Assembly: GCA_021323595.1 (NCBI GenBank)
Contig: JAJPKR010000002.1
Location: 1 to 64,000 of the forward strand
Direction: 5' to 3'
Length of the DNA: 64,000 nucleotides
Source of the DNA: Terriglobia bacterium
GTDB taxonomy: Bacteria; Acidobacteriota; Terriglobia; Terriglobales; SCQP01
Shown: positions 28,612 through 47,849 of the stretch, in pieces
Layout: each line of letters begins with the position of its first letter
Numbering within the stretch: position 1 is the stretch's first letter
Made by a program: the position numbers and the translations under genes
The notes under the pieces: generated by a model
Told to the model about the DNA's origin: nothing
Database searches by the model: none
The model's input: the letters and a program-made list of their open reading frames with translations, nothing else

Positions 28612-29769
28612 CTACTGCGCGGTCGCCGGTGGATCGGCAAAATATCCCTCGCGCGCGCGAATCCGCAAATTCTTGCGATCCCCCACCAGCTGAATCTTGA
28701 TCCTGCGGAAGGTTCCGTCCATTTGCGGCCGGTCGGAGCGGTAAGCCAGCGTATATTGGCTGCGTAATTCCGCCGCAATCTGCGCGAAGGCGCCGGCCAT
28801 CTTTCCCGGACGCACGTTGAACGAGCGGCCGCCCGCGACGTCGGCAAGATGGCGCAGGGCGCCCGCGCCCGAGTAGCCGAAATCGCCGTAAAACGCGGGA
28901 TCGGCGGCGATCACCGCATAGAGCACGGTGTTGGAATCGAGCAGCGCGCGTTCCGCGTCGCGGGGCGTGTGCACGCTGCCCTGGTCGTCGCCGTCGGTGA
29001 TGACCACGATCGCCTTCCGCCCCACTTGCTGTGCCAGCCGGTCTTGGCAAGCGTCCACGATGGCGTCCCAGAGGTGCGTCGCGCCGGTGCTGCCGGCCGG
29101 GAACGTCCCCGGATTGAGAATCGAGCCCCCGCCGCCGCCCCCGCCGATATGCGCCTGCTCCACCGCCGCGTCGAGCAAGCTGCGCGAGGAGGTGAGGTCT
29201 TGCAGCAGATGGGTATCCACGTCGAACCCGAGCACGAAGGCGAGATCGCGCGGCGTGATCACTTGCTCGAAAAATTCGCGGCTCACCACCTGCTCTTCCT
29301 CGAGCAGCCGCTCTTGGCTCGGGCTGGTGTCGATGAGCCAGCCCAGGGTAAGCGGCAACTGCTGCTCGGCGGAGAAGAATCGAATTTGCTCCGGACGCCC
29401 GTCCTCAAAGACGCGGAAATCGGCGCGCGTCAGGCCGGGCACGTATTCGCCGTGTCGGGTTTGCACGCTGAACGAGACGTTCACCAAATTCGCATTCGCG
29501 ACGATTGTGGGAATGCCCGACTGCGTTTGCCGAGGCCGCGAAGCGGGGGCGGTCGCGGCTGCGCCGGGTGGCGGCGGCGCGGGGATGGCGACGGGATTGG
29601 GCCGTGCGGCGCTCGCCGCCGCCGGCACCGGCAGCGGGGCGCCGGCAGTGTTGGCTTGCGCGGGCGCGCGCAGCGTCGGCCCGCTCGCCGGCGGCGGCAG
29701 CCGCTGTGCCGCCAGCGCGCCGCACAGCAACAACCATGGCACCAGCAAATCGACGCGCGACCTAGGCAT
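28612..29769 (-). CDS. secreted VWFA-related domain protein (acidobacterial type)
   Basis: A 385-residue exported protein. The signal peptide is RVDLLVPWLLLCGALAAQ. A Pro/Ala-rich linker (to about residue 95) precedes a VWFA-related domain with VRFRVFED-like RADFRVFEDGRPEQIRFF, MIDAS motif WLIDTSPSQ (DxSxS as DTSPS), the Gly-rich loop HIGGGGGGGS, VVITDGDDQG (second MIDAS Asp) and the C-terminal YTLAYRS segment. Such proteins are strongly expanded in Acidobacteriota and have no established function; metal-dependent protein binding is the general role of VWA domains. ATG 29769 follows an AGAGGG RBS; the reading to 29844 is rejected because the signal peptide begins at 29769. Confidence 0.9.
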   Translation of the reverse strand: MPRSRVDLLVPWLLLCGALAAQRLPPPASGPTLRAPAQANTAGAPLPVPAAASAARPNPVAIPAPPPPGAAATAPASRPRQTQSGIPTIVANANLVNVSFSVQTRHGEYVPGLTRADFRVFEDGRPEQIRFFSAEQQLPLTLGWLIDTSPSQERLLEEEQVVSREFFEQVITPRDLAFVLGFDVDTHLLQDLTSSRSLLDAAVEQAHIGGGGGGGSILNPGTFPAGSTGATHLWDAIVDACQDRLAQQVGRKAIVVITDGDDQGSVHTPRDAERALLDSNTVLYAVIAADPAFYGDFGYSGAGALRHLADVAGGRSFNVRPGKMAGAFAQIAAELRSQYTLAYRSDRPQMDGTFRRIKIQLVGDRKNLRIRAREGYFADPPATAQ

Positions 29770-29925
29770 AAACACCCTCTTTAAGTATGACGCGCCGAAC
29801 CGGGCGTGCTTGCGCTCGGACCTCCGGCGCATTTGCGCGCGCATCCGACGGCGCTGGAGGGCGGCGATGCGATCGCGCCTGTCCGCGCGAGCGGTGTCGT
29901 GCCGCTGCGCGGCGAGTTTTTTCTC

Positions 29926-29955
29926 TTGACACCATCGCCGCGCAAATTCTATACA
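29926..29955 (+). promoter_or_regulatory. sigma-70 promoter of the Lys/Ala micro-gene
   Basis: Perfect TTGACA (29926-29931), an 18-nt spacer, and TATACA (29950-29955, 4 of 6). The predicted start near 29962 gives a leader of about 55 nt to ATG 30018. Confidence 0.75.
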
Positions 29956-30017
29956 TGGCCTAGTTCCGCGGGAAGTCGTAGTTGGGCTTCGGCGGTTTTA
30001 GTTATAGGAGAATAGCA

Positions 30018-30083
30018 ATGGCAAAAGCCACGAAGAAGCCGGCCAAGAAGGCGGCGAAGAAGACGGCGAAAAAGAAGAAGTAG
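30018..30083 (+). CDS. 21-residue Lys/Ala-rich micro-protein (histone H1-tail-like)
   Basis: Encodes MAKATKKPAKKAAKKTAKKKK: eleven Lys, six Ala and no acidic residue. It resembles the PAKKA repeats of eukaryotic histone H1 tails and of the Lys-rich tails on some bacterial HU-like proteins, so nucleic-acid binding is a fair inference but not shown. Evidence for a real gene is positional: a TTGACA-18-TATACA promoter, an AGGAG RBS (30005-30009) 8 nt before the ATG, and a perfect 12-bp terminator 22 nt after the stop. An in-frame stop lies at 29979-29981, so it is not the tail of a larger upstream ORF. It could instead be a dual-function small RNA. Confidence 0.75.
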   Translation: MAKATKKPAKKAAKKTAKKKK

Positions 30084-30105
30084 CCGCTCGATTCGCATCT
30101 TGGGA

Positions 30106-30132
30106 AAAAGGGGACGGCTGCCGTCCCCTTTT
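30106..30132 (+). terminator. perfect intrinsic terminator
   Basis: A 12-bp perfect stem, AAAAGGGGACGG pairing with CCGTCCCCTTTT, around a 3-nt CTG loop, with the 3' arm ending in four Ts. It is the cleanest terminator in the window. It ends the 30018 micro-gene transcript just before the Sua5-type gene, so the two are probably not one operon. Confidence 0.85.
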
Positions 30133-30139
30133 GTCGTCT

Positions 30140-30808
30140 ATGGGGTCCACGGCGCGCCGCATCGTCATCAATCCGCTCCAGCCCGAACCGGACCGCATTG
30201 CGGAACTCGCCGCGCTGTTGTGCGCCGGTGCAGTCGTGGCCGTGCCGACCGACACGGTTTACGGCTTGGCGGCCGACGCCGCCGATGCCGCGGCGGTGGC
30301 CCGCGTCTTTGCCGCCAAGGGCCGCGAGGAAACCAAGCCGCTGCCCATTTTCATCCGCGATCGCGCGCAGGCGCGGGAGCTGGCGCAAGCCTGGCCGGAG
30401 GCGGCGGAGCGTTTGGCGGAAGCGTTTTGGCCGGGAGCCTTGACCCTGATCGTGCCGGCGCGCCGGGATCTGGCCGCTTGGCTGCCCGCCGGCCAGGAGA
30501 CGATCGCGCTGCGCCAGCCCGCGCATGCACTGGTGGCGGCGCTGCTCGCCGCCACCGGCCGCGCGCTCACCGGCACCAGCGCCAATCGCAGCGGCCAGGC
30601 GCCCTGCCGCAGCGCCGCCGAGGTCGCCGCGCAGCTCGGCGATCGCATCGCCGCCATCGCCGACGGCGGGCCGAGCGCTCCCGGCGCCCAGCCCTCGACC
30701 ATCGTGGACGTGAGCGGCGCGCGCCCGCGCCTCGCGCGCGCGGGCGCGATTCCCGCCGCCGCCATCGCCGCGGTCGTTCCTTTGACCGACCCTGGCGCAC
30801 CCGCTTAG
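30140..30808 (+). CDS. Sua5/YciO/YrdC-type L-threonylcarbamoyladenylate synthase
   Basis: Makes threonylcarbamoyl-AMP from Thr, bicarbonate and ATP for the t6A37 modification of ANN-decoding tRNAs. 222 residues: YrdC domain with GAVVAVPTDTVYGLAADA, the KGREETKPLPIFI (KxR...SKP-like) loop, WPGALTLIVPA, and TGTSANRSGQAP near the nucleotide site. It is of YrdC length plus a short tail and lacks a full Sua5 domain. ATG 30140 is preferred to TTG 30131, which lies inside the terminator. There is no SD before it, and the promoter is not obvious. The next gene starts 3 nt after its stop. Confidence 0.92.
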   Translation: MGSTARRIVINPLQPEPDRIAELAALLCAGAVVAVPTDTVYGLAADAADAAAVARVFAAKGREETKPLPIFIRDRAQARELAQAWPEAAERLAEAFWPGALTLIVPARRDLAAWLPAGQETIALRQPAHALVAALLAATGRALTGTSANRSGQAPCRSAAEVAAQLGDRIAAIADGGPSAPGAQPSTIVDVSGARPRLARAGAIPAAAIAAVVPLTDPGAPA

Positions 30809-33924: not shown

Positions 33925-33931
33925 CGGGTTC

Positions 33932-34130
33932 GTAGTCGAGTGCTTTGGGTGATCCCGCGTGCGCGGGATTGAAAAGGGAAGCCGGGTGTGATTCCCGCGC
34001 GGCCCCGCCACTGTGAACGGCGAGTCCGCCCTCGCGACAACCACTCGAGCCGCCCGCTGCGGCGGGAGAACTCGGGGAAGGAAGAGGGACGGATGCTGAA
34101 CCGTAAGCCAGGAGACCTGCCCAGGGTATT
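33932..34130 (+). ncRNA. cobalamin (B12) riboswitch
   Basis: The conserved elements occur in the right order: GGGAAGCCGGGTG (33976-33988), the GCCACTG core (34007-34013), a GGGAAGG-like element near 34075-34082, GGATGCTGAACC (34091-34102), and the B12 box AAGCCAGGAGACCTGCC (34105-34121). This is the adenosylcobalamin-type aptamer, which usually lowers expression of uptake or synthesis genes when B12 is plentiful. It lies about 200 nt before a TonB-dependent receptor on the same strand. The expression platform between 34131 and 34317 is GC-rich; whether it blocks transcription or translation is not resolved by eye. Outer edges are approximate. Confidence 0.95.
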
Positions 34131-34317
34131 TGGTCCGCCGCGGCAGCCCGGTGAGGCCGCGAGCGCGGAAAGCGTCTGACCTAGTGCGGGACCGGCGTGT
34201 GCGCCGGCCGCCGGGCGCGCTGGCGTTCGCTCCTTTCCCGCCGCCGCTGCGCGGACGCAGGCTCCCCTGCGGAGCCATCGCTGCCGCCGGCGCGGGCCGG
34301 CGGCCCGAGGATAACCC

Positions 34318-46358: not shown

Positions 46359-47849
46359 ATGGCCGACTACATCTTCTTGATCGAGACGCGCTTTAGCCGC
46401 GAGCAGCAGGCCGCCGCCGCGCTGCTGCAGCGGCATTGCCAGCAGGCGGGATTGAACCTTTATCTGACCGGCGGGCCGATGCGCGACCTGCTCGCCGGCG
46501 CCCCCATCCGCACGCTCGATTTCAGCGTGGAAGGCAACCCGCTGCGCCTGCAAAAGGCCTTGGTCGCCGACGGGGTCGAAGTCCTCGCCGTGGACGCGGA
46601 GGAACAAACCCTGCGGCTGCGCTCGCAGGGCGTGCGGTTCCGCATCAGCGCCGCCCACTCCGAAGTCTTCGAGCAATTCGGCCGCCCGCCGGTCGTCAAG
46701 CCCGCGACCATCGTGGACGATCTGCGCCGCCGCGGCTTCACCCTCGACGCCATCGGCCTGTCGTTGAATGCCGCTTCGCGCGGCCTGCTGCTCGACCCGA
46801 CCAACGGCCTGGCCGATATCGAAGCGCGCCAGATCCGCATGATCCACAATTACGTCTTCTACGACGATCCCGTGCGCTTGCTGCGGGCGGTGCGGCTGCA
46901 AACCCGGCTCGGCTTTACGATTGAGGAGCGCACGGCCGGCCGCATGCAGGCGGCGCTGGAAGGCAATTACATCGAGCATGCGCATAGGCTTTCGCTCGGC
47001 CGCGAGCTCGAAGCCTTGGCCTACGAGCCCGATCCCGCCGCGGTCTTGAAGGCCCTCGAAGCGGCCGGCCTGCTTGAGGCCGCCTTTGGCAAGGGCTTGC
47101 GCACATCCAGGTTGGACATGGCGGCGCTCGCCAAGTTTCCATCTGCCGTGCAACAGCTTGAGGAAGTCGGCTTGACTCCCGACTCCGGCCCGGTGGCGCT
47201 GCGCTTCATTCTAGACGCGCTCCCGAGCAAGGAGCAGGCGGCGCTGCTGCGCTTGCCGCTCAGCAAACCTCTGGTCAGCGGCAGCCAAAAGCTGGCCGCC
47301 GACGCCAAAGCGCTGCAAAAGCAGCTTCTGGGCAAAGCCGGCGCCACGCTGGCCGCGCTCCACGACCTGCTGCATCATGCCCGGCCCGAAGCCGTGCTGT
47401 ATTTGTGCCTGACCGGCAATCCCAAGGTGCAGAGGAAAATCAAGGATTTCACCACCCGCATTCCCGAGCTGCGCCAGCAACTGCCGCTGCGCGAACTCCA
47501 GCAGTTGGGCGTGAATCCGGACGCGCCGGTGTTTCACGACATCATCGAAAAGATCTACCGGCGTCTGCTCGAAGGCAAGCTGCGCGGTGCCGAGCAGATT
47601 CAGGCGGCGCTTATGCAGGAAGCCGAACGCGCCGGCGCCCTCGCGCCGCCGCCATCCAAGACCGCGGCCAAGACCAAAGCCAAAGGCAAGGCGCGCGTCG
47701 CCGAAACCGCCGCCGAAGTCGCCGCCAAGCGCGCTGCCCCGGCCAAGCCGGGCAAAGCCAAAGCCGCCGCCGCGCCCGCCGGCAAGCCCGCCGCCAAGCA
47801 CGGCGCCAAACCCGCCCAGGCCAAGGCCGCCGCTCATAAGAAAAAGTGA
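46359..47849 (+). CDS. CCA-adding enzyme/poly(A) polymerase-like protein with Lys/Ala tail
   Basis: A class II tRNA nucleotidyltransferase-like protein, 496 residues. The head has GGPMRDLL (residues 38-45), but where the family has DxD it reads LDFSVEGN, with Asp54 kept and Ser56 in place of the second Asp. Later family motifs are present: VDDLRRRGFTLDAIGLSL, LLDPTNGLADIEARQIRMI and FYDDPVRLLRAVRLQTRLGF. The neck and body are helical to about 425. The last 70 residues (427-496) are a Lys/Ala/Pro tail ending AAAHKKK. It may be a degenerate or altered-specificity enzyme. ATG 46359 has GGAAGG about 11 nt upstream. It sits between xerC/D and dnaE, all on the plus strand. Confidence 0.85.
   Translation: MADYIFLIETRFSREQQAAAALLQRHCQQAGLNLYLTGGPMRDLLAGAPIRTLDFSVEGNPLRLQKALVADGVEVLAVDAEEQTLRLRSQGVRFRISAAHSEVFEQFGRPPVVKPATIVDDLRRRGFTLDAIGLSLNAASRGLLLDPTNGLADIEARQIRMIHNYVFYDDPVRLLRAVRLQTRLGFTIEERTAGRMQAALEGNYIEHAHRLSLGRELEALAYEPDPAAVLKALEAAGLLEAAFGKGLRTSRLDMAALAKFPSAVQQLEEVGLTPDSGPVALRFILDALPSKEQAALLRLPLSKPLVSGSQKLAADAKALQKQLLGKAGATLAALHDLLHHARPEAVLYLCLTGNPKVQRKIKDFTTRIPELRQQLPLRELQQLGVNPDAPVFHDIIEKIYRRLLEGKLRGAEQIQAALMQEAERAGALAPPPSKTAAKTKAKGKARVAETAAEVAAKRAAPAKPGKAKAAAAPAGKPAAKHGAKPAQAKAAAHKKK

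Follow-up and report, generated by a model that had tools for sequence, protein, structure and literature searches.

A short lysine/alanine-rich gene with its own promoter and terminator in Terriglobia: conservation, translation and a possible role as a non-specific polycation

Organisation of the locus

In the window, i.e., the whole 64-kb stretch of DNA analysed here, a very short gene, hereafter called the micro-gene, lies between a divergent gene for an acidobacterial VWFA protein and the gene for the t6A synthase Sua5/YrdC/TsaC (Table 1). It was described in the initial annotation as a promoter (TTGACA-18-TATACA), an AGGAG ribosome-binding site (RBS), a 21-codon open reading frame (ORF) and a perfect 12-bp terminator, and each of these elements is indeed present in the window sequence. 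The -35 hexamer starts at 29927, AGGAG stands some 9-10 nt 5' of the ATG at 30018, and the 21 codons close with a TAG stop at 30081-30083. The terminator arms (30106-30118 and 30120-30132) are perfect over 13 nt, with 1 nt between them and T's behind them, which on folding gives 12 bp and a 3-nt loop. Between TATACA and the ATG lies AGGAGAATAG.

Table 1. Features of the micro-gene cassette and of its flanking genes in the window
Feature	Position	Strand	Basis
Acidobacterial VWFA protein (TIGR03436), divergent upstream gene, context only	28612..29844	-	TIGR03436 match
Micro-gene promoter: T-rich stretch, -35 TTGACA (29927-29932), 18-nt spacer, TATACA (29951-29956)	29921..29956	+	Read from sequence
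Micro-gene 5'-UTR stem-loop	29964..29997	+	Predicted fold, z -2.6 for 29964-30035
Micro-gene Shine-Dalgarno (SD) block GGAGAATAG	30007..30015	+	Sequence; SD in all homologous cassettes
Micro-gene ORF, 21 aa MAKATKKPAKKAAKKTAKKKK	30018..30083	+	Sequence; third-position-biased substitution in homologues
Intrinsic terminator, 13-nt perfect arms and T-run	30106..30136	+	Inverted repeat; terminator in 142/144 homologous cassettes
Sua5/YrdC/TsaC (t6A synthase), downstream gene	30140..30808	+	Pfam PF01300 5e-54; TIGR00057
			

On both strands of the window, the micro-gene is the sole Lys-rich short ATG ORF. A start at TTG 29982, giving 33 aa, is formally possible, but the ATG at 30018 is the start supported by comparison with relatives. 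The stop on which the initial annotation relied to exclude a longer protein is found in frame just 5' of 29982 and, together with the ATG of the relatives, rules out that the ORF is the C-terminus of a longer protein. A generic sigma-70 scan did not call the promoter, because it requires a T at the last position of the -10 element, and a terminator scan did not call the repeat at 30106-30132, because its T-run belongs to the stem. Both elements nonetheless stand above chance by virtue of their conservation, TTGACA-17/18-TATAC recurring in homologous cassettes and a terminator being found in 142 of 144 of them. As the ATG of Sua5/TsaC lies about 8 nt beyond the terminator, expression of Sua5 in the window probably needs read-through.

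Conservation in the family of the window

In the 12 genomes of the window's family where Sua5 was found, a homologous ORF of 18-25 aa invariably lies upstream of Sua5/TsaC, i.e., directly in 11 of them, with 161-263 nt from its stop to the PTDT motif of Sua5, and at about 0.5 kb in the remaining one. Promoter, SD and terminator are retained in all members, whilst the sequences of the terminator stems vary. Half of the family was missed by a search with a single peptide and those members were recovered by Sua5 synteny. The genome of the window further contains a second copy of the micro-gene, downstream of purE (L121, G000:C26:179000-181400, ATG at locus position 1228), which is divergent and encodes the 17-aa MAAKKKAAAKKPAKKKK behind a TTGACT-18-TATAT promoter, a very stable 5'-UTR hairpin and a strong SD AAAGGAGG, with a terminator of its own. 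A similar extra copy also follows purE in G009 (L008), and another one is found in G005 (L134).

Conservation across Terriglobia and beyond

At the level of the class Terriglobia, 146 distinct cassettes were gathered, encoding 86 distinct peptides of 14-32 aa, where the promoter spacer is 17 nt in 133 of the 146 and an SD precedes every ORF, mostly 9-10 nt 5' of the ATG; to enter this set, an ORF had to be rich in Lys/Ala and preceded by a promoter-like motif, and in the named-genome part the SD block and codon classes served as filters as well, so that the figures for composition, promoter, SD and codons overall reflect this selection in part. The bias weighs less on the terminators, the 5' hairpin, the KK spacing and the subset picked by Sua5 synteny. 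A sequence-only model built on 15 cassettes (R1) gave full-length matches, from the -35 element to the stop codon, through the order and in numerous families of the class, the best-ranked matches spanning this interval; the overall tally of the model (297/298 at E<=1) was left out as a presence count, being inflated by matches to the Lys/Ala tails of other proteins. In the four non-acidobacterial genomes used as controls, the matches of R1 covered the Lys/Ala part only and never extended to the promoter. With a strict promoter-to-ORF pattern, 92 of 150 genomes of the order matched with one copy each, of which about 90 are genuine, two (G038 and G043) looking unrelated, and the reversed pattern gave no match in the same 150 genomes; this pattern may exclude variants, as G005 and G009 carry the gene yet do not match.

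A pattern scan of named genomes gave at least 117 stretches. Of these, 80 were listed, and in 76 of them the ORF belongs to an acidobacterial genome, chiefly from Acidobacteriaceae (Edaphobacter, Granulicella, Terracidiphilus and Occallatibacter; order Terriglobales, class Terriglobia). The four non-acidobacterial matches among those listed were rejected: two belong to a longer ORF of acidic composition, one is part of a longer Lys/Ala protein and the last is a stand-alone Bdellovibrionales ORF without the acidobacterial promoter. This last ORF, in a metagenome-assembled genome (L167, 2564-2618, minus strand), reads MATKKKATKKKAAKKKTAKKKKK and has the SD GGAGAATAG and a terminator-like stem, which raises the question of a convergent or transferred relative. 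Similar cassettes are also scattered in other classes of Acidobacteriota (L267, L268, L271 and L278). As such, the conservation in relatives on which the initial annotation made its reading depend was looked for and encountered, ORF, RBS and terminator all being kept across the bacterial class, and its view of a self-contained gene is borne out by the class-wide retention of a cassette with its own promoter, SD and terminator.

Neighbouring genes, on the contrary, are not kept. Among the groups examined, Sua5 lies downstream in the window's family only, whereas the neighbours in Acidobacteriaceae, named by eye from sequence, are RsmE-like, CPBP-protease-like or serine-dehydratase-like, or a convergent coiled-coil gene. 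This variation outside the window's family argues for the autonomy of the micro-gene.

Evidence for translation

In 10 distinct genomes of the window's family picked by Sua5 synteny, codon positions 1, 2 and 3 differ by 8.4, 4.2 and 38.2%, respectively, with 274 synonymous vs 85 nonsynonymous differences. The bias recurs in the 50 ORFs found with R1 (18, 14 and 43%; 2550 synonymous vs 1958 nonsynonymous) and in the whole set of 146 cassettes, 136 ORFs and 86 peptides (8.4, 3.0 and 35.6%; 5598 vs 1789), although the latter figures are partly biased by the named-genome pattern, which restricts codon positions 1 and 2. Read in the two shifted frames, the whole set gives synonymous/nonsynonymous counts of 556/7122 and 82/7486. 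All these counts are descriptive, the compared pairs sharing ancestry. The 5'-UTR lengths are spread over the three phases, whereas ORF length varies by whole codons, i.e., by in-frame indels. Judged from these sequence comparisons, the micro-gene is almost certainly real and translated, and the substitution pattern shows what would be expected of a translated gene under purifying selection; a chance ORF is rejected by the class-wide conservation together with the codon bias.

Features of the transcript

A stem-loop just past the transcription start is predicted in most of the UTRs (mean z -3.4 over 146 UTRs). Its pairing amounts to 334 paired cells against 306 +/- 3.4 in column shuffles, the largest of 300 shuffles reaching 317, and it is kept while the sequence changes, the sequence being quite different in the window's family. 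This hairpin is a probable mRNA stabiliser. Besides, conservation of the SD block at 30007-30015 and in homologous cassettes extends further than in an ordinary SD; throughout the order, the block reads (G)GGAGAATAG, and it could be an extended SD or a regulator site.

Composition of the peptide and comparison with known systems

The peptides consist of K 49%, A 35%, T 6% and P 4%, a composition for which the search filter is partly responsible, and bear a net charge of +8 to +15 (median +11). KK doublets are 4 residues apart in 238 of 315 cases, compared with about 29 after shuffling, and are separated by Ala, Pro or Thr. The peptides differ in length and in exact residue order but agree in composition and KK spacing, a pattern that fits a non-specific polyanion binder following a backbone and matches H1 and AlgP tails. 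The resemblance to H1 tails proposed in the initial annotation thus stands, with about half Lys, a third Ala and KK pairs four residues apart.

The C-terminal domain of histone H1, Hc1 and Hc2 of Chlamydia, and BpH1 of Bordetella are characterised by a Lys/Ala/Pro/Thr composition with KK doublets. The micro-gene peptide shares both traits with them but is much shorter, no extended version of the gene occurs at the locus, and homology is undemonstrable at such low complexity. The ribosomal proteins bTHX and bL37, for their part, are strongly basic, 20-30 residues long and of fixed, non-repetitive sequence with Arg, Gly and aromatic residues; the micro-gene peptide is akin to them in size and basicity but is repeat-like and variable in length. 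A likeness in repeat structure is seen with the tails of AlgP (AlgR3) and PhaF in Pseudomonas, namely Lys/Ala/Pro low-complexity repeats of H1-like character with regular Lys spacing, and the Lys/Ala/Pro-dominated composition with regular KK spacing of this AlgP-type or H1-like kind was indeed found in the micro-gene peptides. Lys-Pro-Ala-Ala repeat peptides of the AlgP type bind DNA in vitro (PMC9239181). The AlgP and PhaF tails, however, are 154-195 residues long and sit on an N-terminal domain, whereas the micro-gene has its own promoter and terminator and encodes, behind the in-frame upstream stop, a whole protein of 14-32 aa with neither a globular or helical partner domain nor a long tail.

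Searches of Pfam, NCBIfam, PHROGs and PDB with the peptide gave no match, these tools being weak on a 21-residue low-complexity query, and no description of the cassette was found in the literature searched, the coverage of which was partial. The Global Microbial smORF Catalogue called genes down to 30 nt and mentions neither lysine nor Acidobacteria in its main text (PMC11364881); micro-gene entries may already be present there, unrecognised.

Proposed function and alternative explanations

The best explanation, and a fairly probable one, is that the micro-gene peptide acts as a non-specific polycation binding polyanions or nucleic acids. The micro-gene is strongly promoted and monocistronic, and its product is a free polycation of 14-32 residues; its near-consensus promoter, 5' hairpin and terminator look suited to high, insulated output, and the gene is presumably highly expressed. 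Disordered in solution, abundant and sequence-non-specific, the peptide would run along the phosphate backbone, neutralising or compacting DNA, or alternatively coat RNA, ribosomes or polyphosphate, in the mode of the histone H1 and AlgP tails but without a globular domain. DNA appears the likeliest single target, although composition alone cannot tell it from RNA, the ribosome or polyphosphate.

The same size and charge would also suit (i) a tiny ribosomal or ribosome-associated protein of the bTHX/bL37 type, specific to Acidobacteriota and filling a pocket of the rRNA, with which the single strict-pattern copy per genome, the strong promoter and the translation-gene neighbours of some groups, namely Sua5/TsaC in the window's family and, by eye, an RsmE-like gene in Acidobacteriaceae, are all consistent. 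Known tiny ribosomal proteins are fixed sequences containing Arg, Gly or aromatic residues; here, length drifts from 14 to 32 residues and conservation bears mainly on composition and KK spacing, so a ribosomal protein is unlikely and a non-specific binder fits better. Quite unlikely is (ii) a polycation organising polyphosphate or other granules instead of binding the nucleoid or RNA: AlgP, with the closest tail composition (Lys/Ala/Pro), associates with granules of polyphosphate and sets their spacing (PMC9239181), but it combines a helical N-terminal domain of 124 residues with a disordered C-terminal domain of 195 residues, and a lone 21-mer could not tether two things in its manner. Promoter, 5' hairpin and terminator also resemble those of (iii) a small RNA gene, the hairpin being backed by pairing, where an RNA of about 170 nt would be the functional product and the ORF incidental or dual-function; this is very doubtful given the strong third-position bias, the in-frame length changes and the SD preceding the ORF, and Rfam returned no family for the cassette at gathering threshold. 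Lys and Thr tRNAs carry t6A, and it could be imagined (iv) that t6A shortage stalls the ribosome on ANN-rich codons (Lys AAR, Thr ACN) of a leader peptide, relieves the terminator and raises Sua5/TsaC, for which the terminator between ORF and Sua5 and the 12/12 synteny in the window's family make an attractive local case; such an attenuator cannot explain a class-wide gene, the same ORF, promoter and terminator preceding other genes or a convergent gene outside this family, the terminator stem being the dominant fold without an evident antiterminator in the window transcript, and the peptide being conserved beyond its codons alone, which leaves it scarcely credible.

Returning to the non-specific polycation, a broader proposition can be put forward with somewhat less than even confidence, i.e., that Terriglobia, and possibly most Acidobacteriota, possess a nucleoid (or ribosome) peptide of some 22 residues that is nearly universal, highly expressed and hitherto undescribed, and which would be an H1-type tail existing as an independent gene and perhaps joined at times to the C-terminus of other proteins. 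If true, this nucleoid peptide would rank among the smallest known chromatin-type proteins. Acidobacteriota count among the most common bacteria of soils, and knowledge of their nucleoid is scant. Being class-wide and, with its some 22 codons, below the usual limits of gene calling, the micro-gene would be a core gene that has been overlooked; it would also offer a minimal natural model of the action of an H1-type tail without the histone and, as it is compact and monocistronic in genera available in culture (Granulicella and Edaphobacter), it lends itself readily to gene deletion, tagging and binding assays.

Further observations on Lys/Ala-rich tails and on the window

At one locus (L048, G178:C67, 193-1557), a GTPase-like ORF, ObgE-like by eye, runs in frame into SKQGRIKMAAKKAAKKATKK..., where QGRIKM resembles the translated SD block CAAGGGAGAATCAAAATG. 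Read from the sequence, this is possibly a micro-gene fused to the preceding gene, which would provide a route to Lys/Ala tails. In the window itself, the initial annotation had pointed to a neighbouring CCA-like protein with a tail of the same composition as the micro-gene peptide. The tail is real, a PolyA_pol/CCA-type enzyme carrying a Lys/Ala/Pro-rich C-terminal tail at 47640-47849, but the gene is not a neighbour, and a link between the two was rejected at a distance of 17 kb. Elsewhere in the window, a cobalamin riboswitch (RF00174, 110.6 bits) lies at 33930-34138 on the plus strand and overlaps the upstream end of a GH3 glycosidase ORF on the opposite strand.
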